Assembly (NCBI RefSeq): GCF_900100375.1
Contig: NZ_FNEZ01000001.1
Span: 186,001-250,000, forward strand
Reading direction: 5' to 3'
Source: Flavobacterium noncentrifugens
GTDB taxonomy: Bacteria > Bacteroidota > Bacteroidia > Flavobacteriales > Flavobacteriaceae
Length of the DNA stretch: 64,000 nt
Under the pieces are notes generated by a model. The model had not been told where the DNA came from. It made no database searches and saw only the letters and a program-made list of their open reading frames with translations. Position 1 is the stretch's first letter. Each line of letters starts with the position of its first letter. Below are positions 56,785-62,085 of this stretch, piece after piece. The position numbers were made by a program, and so were the translations under genes.

Positions 56785-57144
56785 ATGGCCCTTTCAATTG
56801 TACACCTATTAAAAAACGAATGTCCGAATTGTCATAAAGGAAAAGTCTTTAAAGACAAATCGCTATTTTCTTTCGGATTTCCAAAAATGAACGACTATTG
56901 CAGCCATTGTAATACCAAATTCTCAAAAGAACCGGGTTATTTCTTTGGTGCCATGTATGTTAATTATGGCTTAAATGTCATTCAGGGAATCGGTACTTAC
57001 TTTATTGTACGCCCGTTTTTTTCTGAAACTTTCGACCTGCGGATTTTTCCGGTCATTGCCGGCGTGTTGATCGCACTGACTTTTTTCAACATCAGATTTT
57101 CGCGTTTGTTGTGGATTTACATGCTTAAAAACTACGCCACTTAG
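56785..57144 (+). CDS. DUF983 family small membrane protein
   Basis: A 119-residue protein with an N-terminal zinc-ribbon-like pair of CxxC motifs (Cys13/Cys16 in CPNC and Cys39/Cys42 in CSHC), followed by two transmembrane segments at about 55-75 and 84-102. This is the layout of the DUF983 family, which is widespread and of unknown function. It is divergent from the AraC gene and precedes the two-component system by 153 bases, with no sign of a shared transcript. Confidence 0.87.
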   Translation: MALSIVHLLKNECPNCHKGKVFKDKSLFSFGFPKMNDYCSHCNTKFSKEPGYFFGAMYVNYGLNVIQGIGTYFIVRPFFSETFDLRIFPVIAGVLIALTFFNIRFSRLLWIYMLKNYAT

Positions 57145-57266
57145 AAACTTCGCATTAAATATTCCCGGGTTTTCTGATATCAATAGAAATGGGCAATAAA
57201 AAATCCACATCCTTTAAATCGGCTGGTAAAAGTTCATTTTTGGCAAAAAATTTAGAATTCAATCTT

Positions 57267-57274
57267 TATTTTTG
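57267..57274 (+). promoter_or_regulatory. Putative -7 element for the response regulator/kinase operon
   Basis: TATTTTTG, 23 bases before the ATG at 57298. A TTG at 57240-57242 lies 24 bases upstream, slightly beyond the normal spacing. Confidence 0.5.
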
Positions 57275-57297
57275 TATAAAACGACTAAAAAAGCCGG

Positions 57298-57972
57298 ATG
57301 AAATTACTTATTGTCGAAGACGAACCGAACCTGCTTTCCGTGATCAAACGCGGATTTTCAGAGAACAACCACGATGTAAGTGCCGCAATGGACGGCACGA
57401 CGGCATTGATGATGCTCGAAAACCACCATTTCGATGCAGTGATTCTCGATTTAATGCTGCCAGACATCAACGGACTGGAAATTTGCAGAAGGCTTCGATT
57501 GAATGGGAATTTCACACCTATTTTAATGCTCACCGCGCTCGCAAGTACCGAAAATGTTGTGACCGGATTGCAGGCTGGTGCCGATGATTATCTTGCCAAA
57601 CCGTTTAAATTTTCAGAGCTTGAAGCGCGCATGATGGCGTTGTTGCGCCGTTCCGGGCAAGAGCACAAACAACCTGACATCATTTCTATTGACGATCTTG
57701 AAATTGATATCAAAGCTAAATCGGTCAGGCGCGGCGATGATTTGATCCAGCTTACTGCAAAGGAATTTAGATTGTTGCATTTTCTGGCCCGAAACAACGA
57801 AATGATTGTTTCGCGTGAGCAAATCCTGGACAACGTTTGGGATATCAATTTCGACATGAGCACCAATGTTGTCGATGTGTACATCAATTACCTTCGCAAA
57901 AAAATCGACAAGCCGTACGACACCAAACTCATCCACACCATCAAAGGTTTGGGCTATATCCTAAAACCTTAA
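57298..57972 (+). CDS. OmpR/PhoB-family response regulator
   Basis: A 224-residue regulator with a receiver domain (about 1-118; acidic pair Glu7-Asp8, phospho-acceptor Asp51 in VILDLMLPDING, Thr79, Lys101 in LAKPFKF) and a winged-helix DNA-binding domain (about 128-224) with LTAKEFRLLHFLARN and VVDVYINYLRKKID. It is followed after one base by its sensor kinase. A likely target is the array of 7-base repeats at 59339-59390 ahead of the Usp-like and bestrophin genes, because OmpR-type proteins bind tandem heptamers about 11 bp apart. Confidence 0.95.
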   Translation: MKLLIVEDEPNLLSVIKRGFSENNHDVSAAMDGTTALMMLENHHFDAVILDLMLPDINGLEICRRLRLNGNFTPILMLTALASTENVVTGLQAGADDYLAKPFKFSELEARMMALLRRSGQEHKQPDIISIDDLEIDIKAKSVRRGDDLIQLTAKEFRLLHFLARNNEMIVSREQILDNVWDINFDMSTNVVDVYINYLRKKIDKPYDTKLIHTIKGLGYILKP

Positions 57973-57973
57973 C

Positions 57974-59335
57974 ATGCAGATCCGGAAGAGAATTACAATT
58001 ACTTATGTGACTTTGTCTGTGCTCAGCACATTGCTGCTGTGTTTGGCTGTTCTGGTGCTTTTCCGTCAGAACAACCGCTATTATTTTATTAAAAGATTGC
58101 AGGACCGCGCAAAAATCGTTGCTTCGATCCATTACCAGAACGATCCCCAGAAAGCCGAATATTACCGAAAACTGAAGACCGAAGGCTTAGAAGAATTGAT
58201 AGACGAAAATGATTTTGTCCTGAAAGTTAATGGCGGAAATACGTTTGAATACAATACCGATTTGCAGTTGCCAACGGAATTCTACACCGAAGTCATGCAA
58301 AAAAAATCGGGCTGGATCGAAGAAAGCCACCGTTATTATTACGGACAGGTTTTTGACGAATCGGGACAAAAATACATGGTCATCATTACAGCGAAAGACC
58401 GGCGCGGAAACCTTAGCACCTTATATATTGTCCGGATTTTATTTATTGGCGGACTCGCTTTTATCATTCTGGCCTATTTTCTCGGACGATTTCTGGCGCG
58501 TCGGGTCGTGCTTCCTATGTCTCGGATTACGAAAGAAGTCAAGCGCATCAGTGCTTCCAATTTGCACAACAGATTGCCTCAGCCTGAAAATGATGATGAA
58601 ATGTCTGATCTGACTTCAACATTCAACGACATGCTTGACCGTTTGGAAACATCTTTCGAAATTCAGGCCAACTTCATCAACAACGCTTCCCACGAATTGA
58701 AAACACCAATTACGACGATTATTGCCGAATCGGAAATCATGCTTTTAAAAACACGCCAACCTGAAGAATATCAGGAAGCGCTGACCAACATTTACAACCA
58801 GGCGACACGTTTGGGCAATCTGACGGAAAGCCTTTTAAAACTCACACAAACGGGTTACGACGGACAAAAACAGGTCAAAGATATCGCGCGATTGGACGAA
58901 TTGCTGATGGATGTCAAAGCCGAACTCGACAAATTGCAGCCCGGCAACCGCGTGAGCCTGCGCCTTGATGATTTGCCCGAAGACGATTCGCTATTGTTGA
59001 TTCCGTGCAACAAACCGCTGATCGAACTGGCGTTGTCGAATATCATTTCAAACGGCGTCAAATACAGCAACAATGAGCCGGTTTTTGTAACCATCGGTGC
59101 GAATCAGAAATACCTGACCGTTACGATTACCGATATTGGCATTGGCATTCCTGCCGAAGACATTCCACACCTTTACGAGCCGTTTTTCCGCGGAAAAGAA
59201 GCCTCGCGTTACAACGGTTACGGACTCGGATTGCCATTAGCGATGAAGATTATCCGGATGCACAACGGCGAACTCAAAATCCAGTCGCAACCCGATGAAG
59301 GAACGATTGTAACAATTGTATTCCGCAAAGATTAA
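57974..59335 (+). CDS. Two-component sensor histidine kinase
   Basis: A 453-residue membrane kinase: TM1 (about 8-30), a periplasmic sensor region of some 120 residues, TM2 (about 150-172), HAMP (about 172-226), HisKA with phospho-acceptor His240 in NNASHELKTPI, and an HATPase_c domain with N-box NIISNGVKYS, G1 DIGIGIP and G2 GYGLGLPLA. The architecture resembles CusS/ArlS-type kinases. The sensor region has no recognised ligand-binding motif. One base separates it from the regulator gene, so both are made from one transcript. Confidence 0.95.
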   Translation: MQIRKRITITYVTLSVLSTLLLCLAVLVLFRQNNRYYFIKRLQDRAKIVASIHYQNDPQKAEYYRKLKTEGLEELIDENDFVLKVNGGNTFEYNTDLQLPTEFYTEVMQKKSGWIEESHRYYYGQVFDESGQKYMVIITAKDRRGNLSTLYIVRILFIGGLAFIILAYFLGRFLARRVVLPMSRITKEVKRISASNLHNRLPQPENDDEMSDLTSTFNDMLDRLETSFEIQANFINNASHELKTPITTIIAESEIMLLKTRQPEEYQEALTNIYNQATRLGNLTESLLKLTQTGYDGQKQVKDIARLDELLMDVKAELDKLQPGNRVSLRLDDLPEDDSLLLIPCNKPLIELALSNIISNGVKYSNNEPVFVTIGANQKYLTVTITDIGIGIPAEDIPHLYEPFFRGKEASRYNGYGLGLPLAMKIIRMHNGELKIQSQPDEGTIVTIVFRKD

Positions 59336-59338
59336 AAT

Positions 59339-59390
59339 TTCTAATGTGGGTTCTTAGGAAATTCTAATGTGGCTTTAAGTTGGTTTTAAT
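59339..59390 (+). promoter_or_regulatory. Array of 7-base repeats, putative response-regulator binding site
   Basis: Five related heptamers start at 59339 (TTCTAAT), 59351 (TTCTTAG), 59362 (TTCTAAT), 59373 (CTTTAAG) and 59384 (TTTTAAT), so the spacings are 12, 11, 11 and 11 bases. The first and third are part of a longer exact repeat, TTCTAATGTGG. This is the geometry of PhoB/OmpR-type sites, with 7-base repeats on one face of the helix. The array lies between the two-component operon and the Usp-like gene, ending 42 bases before its ATG. Confidence 0.6.
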
Positions 59391-59432
59391 TTAGCCGCCG
59401 TTGTTTTGTAAGTGTAATCAAAAACACTTATT

Positions 59433-60158
59433 ATGAACAACATACTTATCCCAACCACACTGCAAAAAGACACGGTTTACGCGCTCAAAACTGCGCTGTC
59501 ACAATCTGAAGAAAATTCCAAAACCATTGTTTTGATGTTGCTGAAAGACACGCCTGACACGGCTTCGGCAGCGTTCTGGCTTCGCGACATGCAAAACGGC
59601 CTGACCGGACTTCAGGAAGAAATTCTGGAACAATGCCACGATATGGTTTCATTTCATCCAAATTTCAAACTTCAGGTGCACCAGCAATTTTCTGTTTCAG
59701 GCCCGCTGCTGCGGAATTTTATCGAAGCGCACAACATCGGACTGATCATTCTTCCGGATACTTTCAGGAAATCGCAACTTGAAATCAACCGCTATTGCCT
59801 GAAACTGCTTAAAAATTCTAATGTTCCGATTCTTCAGCTTGCTGCAGAATTTGACGAGCACCAGTTTTCGAAAGCGTTGTACATCGAAAACAGCGACTCG
59901 AATGTGCAGGCGAAAGACTTGCCGAAAATGATCGGCGGGCATTTTTCTTTTCGGATCATCAGCCAGGCCAAATTTTTTGACGACCAGAACCATGAAGAAA
60001 TGACGCCGGTACTTTACGATACGATCTACAAAAACGGCATCGATTTGCTGATTGAAACCCGAAAACCACAGAAAATCAGCCTTTCCAAAAAGCACAAATC
60101 CTCACTAAATGAAAATTTCGGATTGCCTGTACTTTCAGTTTGCGAGCCGGTTTATTAA
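59433..60158 (+). CDS. Universal-stress-protein-like protein
   Basis: A 241-residue cytoplasmic protein without a firm family hit by eye. The N-terminal strand NNILIPTTL, a helix, TIVLMLL, then LIILPDTF and VPILQLA follow the Rossmann-like plan of UspA domains, and a second, weaker half follows (about 150-241). The ATP-binding G-rich signature of nucleotide-binding Usps is absent. It is the first of two genes downstream of the heptamer array and 24 bases before the bestrophin gene, so it may be a cytoplasmic partner of that channel; this is inference. Confidence 0.6.
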   Translation: MNNILIPTTLQKDTVYALKTALSQSEENSKTIVLMLLKDTPDTASAAFWLRDMQNGLTGLQEEILEQCHDMVSFHPNFKLQVHQQFSVSGPLLRNFIEAHNIGLIILPDTFRKSQLEINRYCLKLLKNSNVPILQLAAEFDEHQFSKALYIENSDSNVQAKDLPKMIGGHFSFRIISQAKFFDDQNHEEMTPVLYDTIYKNGIDLLIETRKPQKISLSKKHKSSLNENFGLPVLSVCEPVY

Positions 60159-60182
60159 TTATCATCCTAAAAAATAAAATAT

Positions 60183-61133
60183 ATGCTGTTGAAGAAAAAA
60201 ATCCCCATGAAATATGTCCTGGGAAAAATCAGGGTTGAATTGTTGCTTGTCTTTTTATATGCGACCGCATTTTCGGTTGTCCATTATTTTTACGGATCGA
60301 TCGCACTTGAAATCCCAATTGCCGTGCCCACAATTGTAGGAACCGTAATTTCGTTATTGCTCGCCTTTAAATCAAACCAGGCATACGACCGTTGGTGGGA
60401 AGCGCGAATCATTTGGGGCGGTGTCGTCAATGATTCCCGAACGCTGCTCCGTCAGGTCATCGCATTTTACAAAGATCCGGATTTCTCCGATGAGGCGAAT
60501 CATTTTAAAGAAAGTTATGCCAAAAGGCAAGCGGCCTGGTGTTACAGCCTGGCGCAATCGCTGCGCGGAAAAGATCCGGTTAAAGCAACGAAGCATTTAT
60601 TGAATGACGAAGAACTGCAATTCATACAACGCCACAAACATGTGCCAAATGCCATCCTTATGCTGCATGCAAAAGAATTGACAAAAGCGACACAAAACGA
60701 AAAATTCAATACCTTCCAGCAGGTTGAAATCGACAATACGTTGACGCGCCTTTGCGATTCGATGGGAAAATGCGAGCGCATTAAAAACACGATTTTCCCG
60801 ACGACTTACAGTATGTACATCCGATTTACCTTGTGTTTGTTTATTATTTTATTGCCGTTTGGCGTTGCACAGCATTTGGGCTGGCTGCAGATTCCGGTGG
60901 TTGTGACTTTAGGAGCCGCGTTCTTCCTGATTGAAAAAATGGCGATCCATTTACAGGATCCGTTTGAAAGCCGACCGACTGATACGCCGATGACTGCGAT
61001 TTGCAACAATATCGAAAAAAATTTATTGCAGATGGTGAATGAATTCCGTGACGAATATGAACATGAAATGCCGGATGCAAAATCCAAAACACATCATATC
61101 GAACCATTGCAAAATGCCTATTTCGTATTGTAA
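60183..61133 (+). CDS. Bestrophin-family anion channel
   Basis: A 316-residue membrane protein of the bestrophin/UPF0187 family, which forms pentameric anion (chloride) channels, or in some bacteria cation-conducting ones. The conserved core SNQAYDRWWEARIIWGGVVNDSR is visible near residue 65, with hydrophobic segments at about 20-60 and 215-260, and a late pore-proximal DPFESRPTDTPM stretch. Its position behind a two-component system and a heptamer array suggests regulated expression. The length is normal for bacterial members. Confidence 0.93.
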   Translation: MLLKKKIPMKYVLGKIRVELLLVFLYATAFSVVHYFYGSIALEIPIAVPTIVGTVISLLLAFKSNQAYDRWWEARIIWGGVVNDSRTLLRQVIAFYKDPDFSDEANHFKESYAKRQAAWCYSLAQSLRGKDPVKATKHLLNDEELQFIQRHKHVPNAILMLHAKELTKATQNEKFNTFQQVEIDNTLTRLCDSMGKCERIKNTIFPTTYSMYIRFTLCLFIILLPFGVAQHLGWLQIPVVVTLGAAFFLIEKMAIHLQDPFESRPTDTPMTAICNNIEKNLLQMVNEFRDEYEHEMPDAKSKTHHIEPLQNAYFVL

Positions 61134-61162
61134 GTTTTCGCTGCGGATGTCTTAAAAAGTTT

Positions 61163-61170
61163 TACTTTTG
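61163..61170 (+). promoter_or_regulatory. Putative -7 element for fabD
   Basis: TACTTTTG, 24 bases before the ATG at 61195. An in-frame TTG start codon would lie within this box, which rules it out as the true fabD start. Confidence 0.55.
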
Positions 61171-61194
61171 CTTCCACAAACAAAAGAACAGACT

Positions 61195-62085
61195 ATGAAA
61201 GCATATATTTTTCCGGGACAGGGCGCCCAATTTACCGGAATGGGTAAAGAATTGTACGAGCAATCGGACCTTGCAAAAGAACTTTTTGAAAGAGCCAACG
61301 AAATATTGGGTTTCCGTATTACCGACATTATGTTTGAAGGTACGGCCGAACAGTTAAAAGAAACCAAAGTCACGCAACCGGCAGTATTTTTACATTCGGT
61401 AATCCTCGCAAAAACGATGAATGAAACGTTCAGGCCTGAAATGGTGGCCGGACATTCCTTAGGCGAATTTTCTGCTCTGGTTGCCAACGGCGCTTTATCA
61501 TTCGAAGATGGGTTAAAACTGGTTTCACAACGTGCGATTGCGATGCAGAAAGCCTGCGAAATTACACCTTCAACAATGGCAGCAGTTTTAGGGCTTGACG
61601 ATAAAATCGTTGAAGATGTTTGCGCTACGATCGACGGCGTTGTAGTTCCTGCGAATTATAACTGCCCGGGACAACTGGTAATTTCAGGAGAAACATCAGC
61701 AGTGGAAAAAGCTTGTGTAGCGATGAAAGAAGCGGGCGCAAAAAGAGCGTTGATCTTACCTGTAGGCGGTGCATTCCATTCGCCAATGATGGAACCGGCG
61801 CGTGAAGAATTGGCCGCAGCCATTGAAAGTACAACATTTTCACAACCGATTTGCCCGGTATATCAAAATGTGACGGCAAGCGCAGTTTCAGATCCCGAAG
61901 AAATCAAAAAGAATTTAATCATTCAATTGACCGCTCCGGTAAGATGGACGCAATCGGTACAGCAAATGATTAAGGACGGCGCGACTTTGTTTACTGAAGT
62001 TGGCCCCGGAAATGTACTTCAAGGATTGGTTAAGAAAATTGATGGCTCCGCTGAAACGGCGTCGGCAACACCAATTAATGGATAA
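61195..62085 (+). CDS. fabD: Malonyl-CoA:ACP transacylase
   Basis: FabD transfers malonyl groups from CoA to acyl-carrier protein, starting fatty-acid elongation in the cytoplasm. The 296-residue product starts MKAYIFPGQGAQ, has the active-site Ser88 in GHSLGEFSA, His195 in GGAFHSPMM, and the QPAVFLHS and GPGNVLQGLV segments of the family. The ATG at 61195 is used because the only upstream in-frame alternative (TTG at 61168) lies within the -7 box. A terminator follows at 62111. Confidence 0.96.
   Translation: MKAYIFPGQGAQFTGMGKELYEQSDLAKELFERANEILGFRITDIMFEGTAEQLKETKVTQPAVFLHSVILAKTMNETFRPEMVAGHSLGEFSALVANGALSFEDGLKLVSQRAIAMQKACEITPSTMAAVLGLDDKIVEDVCATIDGVVVPANYNCPGQLVISGETSAVEKACVAMKEAGAKRALILPVGGAFHSPMMEPAREELAAAIESTTFSQPICPVYQNVTASAVSDPEEIKKNLIIQLTAPVRWTQSVQQMIKDGATLFTEVGPGNVLQGLVKKIDGSAETASATPING

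Follow-up and report, generated by a model that had tools for sequence, protein, structure and literature searches.

Sites bound by response regulators of the OmpR/PhoB type have a standard form: 7-bp motifs in tandem, separated by 4-bp spacers (PMC4415409; PMC4832192). At the PHO box such direct repeats are occupied by PhoB head to tail. Motif number and spacing both count: the PhoP protein of Mycobacterium tuberculosis has a higher affinity for three or four tandem motifs than for two, and its affinity falls when the spacer is changed, for example from 4 to 5 bp (PMC4832192). In the Bacteroidetes, the promoter carries a -7 element at -12 to -5, and transcription begins 4-5 nt after it (PMC6847099); the element occupies the same position in Flavobacterium psychrophilum (PMC9723704). 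No mapped sites of OmpR-type regulators in Bacteroidetes were found by title among the literature matches listed. The order regulator, kinase, operator and target is familiar from the heavy-metal systems CusRS, CopRS and CzcRS. For the bestrophin channels, the eukaryotic members are chloride channels with a neck formed by I, F and F, and the Klebsiella protein KpBest (PDB 4wd8 and others) is reported as a Na+ channel with a neck of I, I and F (PMC8496536). The cellular role of bacterial bestrophins is not described in the literature matches listed or in the available part of one review (PMC8496536). Searches combining bestrophin with two-component, Flavobacterium, universal stress protein or response regulator gave nothing relevant in titles and abstract starts of the matches listed.

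The locus described here lies in the window, a stretch of 64,000 nucleotides from Flavobacterium noncentrifugens (contig NZ_FNEZ01000001.1, positions 186,001 to 250,000). Five heptamers are placed between a regulator-kinase gene pair and the genes for a Usp-like protein (usp) and a bestrophin (Table 1). This context had been proposed in the original prediction and is borne out by the coordinates and by Pfam, with the Usp-like protein recognised by its predicted fold. It is very probable that the array is the operator of the adjacent OmpR/PhoB-type regulator, which would activate usp-bestrophin in response to a signal from the kinase. The site resembles the PHO box in its 7-bp direct repeats and 4-bp spacers (PMC4415409; PMC4832192), and differs from it in its number of repeats (five), in its 12-bp first step, in its motif (TTCTAAT, against CTGTCAT in Escherichia coli) and in preceding a -7 box of the Bacteroidetes type. 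The operator type and the class of mechanism are familiar; the bestrophin target and its swappability are not.

Table 1. Features of the locus (window coordinates) and gene content of the sister modules.
Feature	Position	Strand	Basis or remark
Response regulator, OmpR/PhoB type (Response_reg + Trans_reg_C), recognition helix TNVVDVYINYLRKKID	57298..57972	+	Pfam
Sensor histidine kinase (HAMP, HisKA, HATPase_c)	57974..59335	+	Pfam; stop codon just before array
Heptamer 1, TTCTAAT	59339..59345	+	read directly; last four letters TAAT in 114/114 loci
Heptamer 2, TTCTTAG	59351..59357	+	read directly; 12 bp after heptamer 1
Heptamer 3, TTCTAAT	59362..59368	+	read directly; downstream of kinase stop in 114/114 loci
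Heptamer 4, CTTTAAG	59373..59379	+	consensus NATTAAG
Heptamer 5, TTTTAAT	59384..59390	+	consensus NTCTAAT; ends 10 bp before -7 box
-7 promoter element TTGTTTTG	59401..59408	+	consensus TTAnTTTG; TTTG at fixed distance from array; PMC6847099
Dyad TAAGTGT-N8-ACACTTA	59409..59430	+	spans inferred start and leader to near the usp start codon
Tandem Usp-like protein	59433..60158	+	AlphaFold model, Foldseek; Pfam Usp at E ≤ 1 in 12/18 aligned members
Bestrophin family channel (Bestrophin_2)	60183..61133	+	Pfam PF25539, 218.3 bits (cut-off 27); KpBest structures, E about 1e-35
Sister module G441: SulP gene, then Usp-like gene			SulP by Pfam PF00916
Sister modules G483, G496: Usp-like gene, then SulP gene			SulP by Pfam PF00916
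Sister module G514: Usp-like gene, Lipocalin_4-like gene (weak, E 0.023), DUF1275 membrane protein			Pfam
Sister modules G032, G013: Usp-like gene, further gene, DUF1275-type membrane protein			assigned by eye

Direct reading of the array gives steps of 12, 11, 11 and 11 bp between the five TTCTAAT-like heptamers, exactly as claimed. Only heptamers 1 and 3 are exact copies of TTCTAAT and the other three diverge; because the copies differ from each other, the window yields no match to a strict pattern of three heptamers, even with 3 mismatches allowed. Scored against a template of five TTCTAAT heptamers, the array reaches 29 of 35. The next best site in the window with the same spacing scores 23 of 35, and the best score outside the array on either strand, with steps left free between 10 and 12, is 25. 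In 200 simulated first-order Markov windows, scored on both strands, the best values are 26 with the same spacing and 27 with free steps, and the array outscores all 200 of the 200. Chance origin is ruled out by these scores together with the conservation across loci.

The Usp-like protein was searched in 398 genomes of the genus and is present in 117 at E ≤ 1e-30, of which 114 (without G413, G418 and G396) were examined as orthologous loci. Five heptamers lie between kinase and usp in every one of these 114 loci, with template scores of 27 to 33 (maximum 34) under a template that imposed the spacing. The invariant array positions are T4 A5 A6 T7, T16 A18, T25 T27 A28 A29, A39 and T49 A51, and the mean information falls from 1.63 bits over the heptamers to 1.05 over the spacers and 0.50 over the 10 bp that follow. 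A set of loci from named genomes (the best 80 of 146), overlapping with the 114, consists entirely of Flavobacterium or 'Flavobacteriaceae bacterium', including F. caeni and F. johnsoniae CI04. In all 80, the array is present with scores of 26 to 33 and TTTG stands at the same distance; the complete gene order is kept in 78, one exception being a 3.2-kb contig. A search for the same array ahead of orthologous pairs had been proposed as a check, and its loss in relatives that keep the gene order had been set as the case against the operator; the array is present throughout both sets and no such loss is seen. A profile of the Usp-like protein run over 397 family genomes that represent 237 genera gives 3 matches at E ≤ 1e-12, all in Flavobacterium.

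Regulator, kinase, usp and bestrophin follow each other in order on one strand in 85 of the 88 loci fetched as 5-kb stretches. Three loci (G236, G074 and G305) keep the array before usp, with no bestrophin within 1.4-1.5 kb after usp. Another, G141, has no usp in its stretch and carries five heptamers, more T-rich, with the same steps and promoter before bestrophin. The array therefore follows the sensor pair, and either target gene is dispensable to its presence.

The position of the promoter is equally constant. The TTTG of a -7-like element is found at one fixed distance past heptamer 5 in 114 of 114 loci, so that heptamer 5 and the 8-base element stand 10 bp apart. In relatives this element is mostly TTAnTTTG; it departs from the Bacteroidetes consensus TAnnTTTG, with TT for TA in the window and T at alignment column 64 in 114/114. 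By the start-site rule of PMC6847099, heptamers 5 to 1 would lie at about -29/-23, -40/-34, -51/-45, -62/-56 and -74/-68 from the inferred start. An array that ends just ahead of a weak proximal element is, by inference, placed as an activator in contact with the polymerase would need it.

In the proposed mechanism, the membrane kinase, when active, would phosphorylate the regulator, and regulator subunits would bind the array head to tail. Heptamers 2-5, at 11-bp steps, probably act as one cooperative block, which is plausible from the tandem-motif affinity data for PhoP (PMC4832192), and heptamer 1 may be the site of one more subunit, an extra contact one base out of phase. Since the -7 box lacks the consensus TA, it is proposed that the bound block, 10 bp away, recruits RNA polymerase and so switches on usp and bestrophin, which would be co-transcribed as an operon. 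The PhoB/OmpR geometry that had been predicted, 7-base repeats with 4-base spacers, is present in three of the four steps in all 114 loci; the first step, 12 bp and not 11, is a point against the operator model.

Other explanations of the array have to be weighed against activation by the adjacent regulator. The repeats might be conserved merely as the end of the kinase coding sequence or as simple AT-rich repeats, with no operator function. The kinase frame does run into the array in 103 of 114 loci, its stop codon ending within heptamer 2 (at array column 19 in 80 loci, at column 13 in 23), so that in most relatives part of the operator doubles as kinase coding sequence. A coding artefact is nevertheless rejected for heptamers 3-5, which lie past the kinase stop in all 114 loci. 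It is largely rejected for heptamers 1-2 as well: in the remaining 11 loci, including the window, the kinase stops before the array, all five heptamers and their spacing are kept and heptamer 1 is always TTCTAAT, and letters 4 and 7 of heptamer 1 never change, although a change there would be silent in the overlapping kinase frame. Sequence in the spacers and in the 10 bp that follow is also more variable than in the heptamers. This explanation is highly improbable. Repression by the same regulator, in which heptamers 4-5 over -40 to -23 would block RNA polymerase and kinase signalling would relieve or impose the block, is unlikely. Members of the OmpR family can repress, as RprY does in Porphyromonas (PMC3646045), and heptamers 4-5 lie, by the inferred position, where polymerase would bind. 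The departure of the -7 box from TAnnTTTG speaks against it, as such a box is expected to need help. This argument is tempered by four sister modules in which the 10-bp distance is kept and the box is TAnn(T/C)TTG, so that weakness of the box is no general trait of the layout.

It is rather less likely still that another OmpR-type regulator mainly binds the array and that the neighbouring pair is unrelated to it. TTCTAAT-like arrays also stand beside other kinases of the subfamily, so recognition may be shared; against this, the array adjoins the kinase in 114/114 loci, the regulator precedes the kinase in the 88 loci that cover it, and the 17 module-bearing genomes searched showed no second strong array. 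A model built from the array was run against 29 genomes, with 150 first-look candidates scored per genome, so that weaker arrays can escape. At this depth, the module array is the top match in 17 of 17 usp-bearing genomes (E 7e-16 to 3e-7), and no second strong array appears in them, the next match in any being E 0.0023 among the matches listed; the T-rich array of G141 has E 0.3. Of the 11 genomes without usp, G013 has the best match (6e-5, adjoining a related kinase), followed by G038 (2.5e-4, within a coding frame) and G004 (0.001, on the far side of a related kinase). In the window's own genome, a three-heptamer pattern with 2 mismatches finds this array (as two overlapping matches) and one other site, and the reversed control pattern finds 15 sites. 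A large regulon is not supported by the single strong array per module-bearing genome (17/17, 150 candidates scored each). To this extent the 'closed module' of the original prediction stands, as one strong array per genome fits a dedicated output. The word 'closed' is too strong: weaker or shorter sites are possible, and a further repeat, of CAYAA, precedes the regulator gene in 45 of 88 relatives.

This CAYAA repeat (for example in L071 and L083) has an 11-bp period, often reads TTCATAATTAAATCATAATT and lies before the promoter of the regulator gene; none is seen upstream of the window's own regulator gene. Autoregulation through it is possible in those relatives. In G141, a three-heptamer TCTAAT array (L188) stands before a gene whose product has a secreted or outer-membrane-like start. 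The TTCTAAT type of heptamer may serve other systems too.

The regulator is an OmpR/PhoB-type response regulator, with a receiver domain (PF00072, 100.9 bits) and a winged-helix Trans_reg_C domain (PF00486, 93.4 bits), both over their cut-offs. The best NCBIfam models for the pair come from the heavy-metal systems. The regulator scores 227 bits against TIGR01387 (CzcR/SilR/CopR; cut-off 279.2) and the kinase 174.9 bits against TIGR01386 (cut-off 292.55), and with both scores under the cut-offs, filing the pair in the CzcR/CopR and CzcS/CopS families is rejected. The output differs as well, being here a Usp-like protein and a bestrophin. Several more distant kinase relatives precede genes that, by eye, resemble metal or RND efflux parts.

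The recognition helix, nearly invariant in its TNVVDVYI part, reads TNV(V/I)DVYI(N/T)YLR in the 88 regulators covered by the stretches of the 114 loci; its T, N, V, D, V, Y, I, Y and R do not vary. Among the sister modules, the six nearest regulators have the helix TNVVDVYVNYLR, of the form TNVVDVYV, and TTCTAAT-type arrays. Among distant relatives, arrays of the TTCTAAT type accompany related helices in L213, L214 and L216, three heptamers are present at L207 and two at L208, and no array is seen at the loci of L205 and L212. Three regulators (L209, L210 and L211) have the helix TGVIDVFMNAIR; CTTAAG-type repeats are present at L209 and L211, and no array is seen at L210. The helix TGVIDVFM thus accompanies CTTAAG-type 11-bp repeats in two of these three, a hint of a helix-to-heptamer code in this kinase/regulator subfamily. 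The link between helix and array is a correlation rather than proof of binding, and is an imperfect one among distant relatives.

Most relatives also keep a dyad, with some paired changes, in the stretch from the -7 box to the usp start codon; its usual form there is TA(A/T)GTATAA-N-TTATAC(T/A)TA. In 76 distinct leaders, compared in a fixed register and with kinship ignored, 556 of 684 cells pair, against at most 522 in 1000 partner shuffles. Pairing depends in part on AT-rich letters, because a register slid by 2 still pairs up to 428 of 684 cells (158-161 when slid by 1). The third pair is T-A in 28 leaders, A-T in 22 and unpaired in 15. No leader fold is predicted in L141 and L157 and hardly any in L147 and L134, and Rfam gives no match at 57000-61200. 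Of two possible readings, a DNA site bound by a second regulator seems somewhat more likely than a hairpin in the mRNA, because the outer pairs of the dyad would lie upstream of the transcript under the 4-5 nt rule (PMC6847099). A dyad over the start site hints at control beyond the adjacent regulator.

The Usp-like protein of the window has no credible match of its own to Pfam Usp (PF00582), and 12 of 18 aligned Usp-like members match this family at E ≤ 1, the best at 2.6e-5. Its AlphaFold model has a mean pLDDT of 82.2, and the best Foldseek matches in the PDB are the tandem universal stress proteins Rv2623 and UspE, with E-values of 1e-7 to 1e-5, a sequence identity near 10% and low TM-scores by query of about 0.5-0.6. 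On this model, the protein is predicted to have the tandem Usp fold. An ATP-binding G-rich loop is a motif of the universal stress protein superfamily; none is seen by eye in the alignment of the Usp-like protein. The Foldseek list also holds KCC2, NCC and KCC-1, structures and C-terminal regulatory domains of cation-chloride cotransporters, at E 4e-5 and weaker. These matches would at most suggest a regulator of ion transport.

The bestrophin belongs to the same channel family as KpBest over most of its length. Its neck residues, read from an alignment, are T54, L58 and F62, and differ from the I, I, F of KpBest (PMC8496536). As they also differ from the chloride-type motif (PMC8496536), an anion-channel reading from the neck is not secured; with a neck unlike either type, ion selectivity is not readable from sequence. 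Two further bestrophin paralogues are present in the window's genome (G000:C19:17809-18660 and G000:C15:99516-100331; 43% and 37% identity), and the 5-kb stretches around both hold no usp match. In L004, L006 and L048 the gap between usp and bestrophin is longer and filled with short TTCTAAG/CTTAG-type repeats on both strands, which could form a long hairpin.

Relatives of the kinase were sought in 100 genomes of the family, where 4 of the 99 others have one at E ≤ 1e-60, and in 20 chosen genomes of the genus. The six closest kinases outside the module (35-41% identity) all belong to units of regulator, kinase, TTCTAAT array and target. These sister modules (G441, G483 and G496; G514, G032 and G013) share with the window a Usp-like gene and a membrane protein after the array. 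They differ in that the membrane protein is another one and that the Usp-like protein has single-domain length. The small Usp-like proteins are named by their start and position, and the five tested all score under the Usp cut-off of 24 bits, the best at 21.3 bits. In G441, G483, G496 and G514 the last heptamer is followed after exactly 10 bp by a TAnn(T/C)TTG box, as it is by eye in G032 and G013. A strict N10 pattern is present in 6 of 18 loci of kinase relatives, against 0.028 expected from shuffles, one of the six (L209) being of the CTTAAG class; L203 and L204 have N10-TAAATTTG by eye. As these sister modules are built alike but carry SulP or a DUF1275-type protein, the design is not limited to bestrophin. 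SulP is an anion transporter family, and by analogy its place in the sister modules suggests that the bestrophin may have an anion role; DUF1275 is of unknown function. Literature matches listed for SulP with universal stress protein and two-component hold nothing relevant. Tentatively, these modules may be interchangeable Flavobacteriaceae cassettes, made of this regulator-kinase type, a TTCTAAT operator, a Usp-like protein and a swappable membrane protein (bestrophin, SulP or DUF1275-type).

For a Bacteroidetes regulator of the OmpR type, the array provides a precise and testable geometry of operator and promoter. With a dedicated two-component system and one clear target promoter, the signal of the kinase would tell when the channel is needed. 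The exchange of bestrophin, SulP and DUF1275-type proteins opens a comparative route to guessing the transported ion. Should the cassettes all serve one purpose, the bestrophins of bacteria would be ion channels under regulation, perhaps carrying bicarbonate or some other anion, and the Usp-like protein would gate the bestrophin or report on it.
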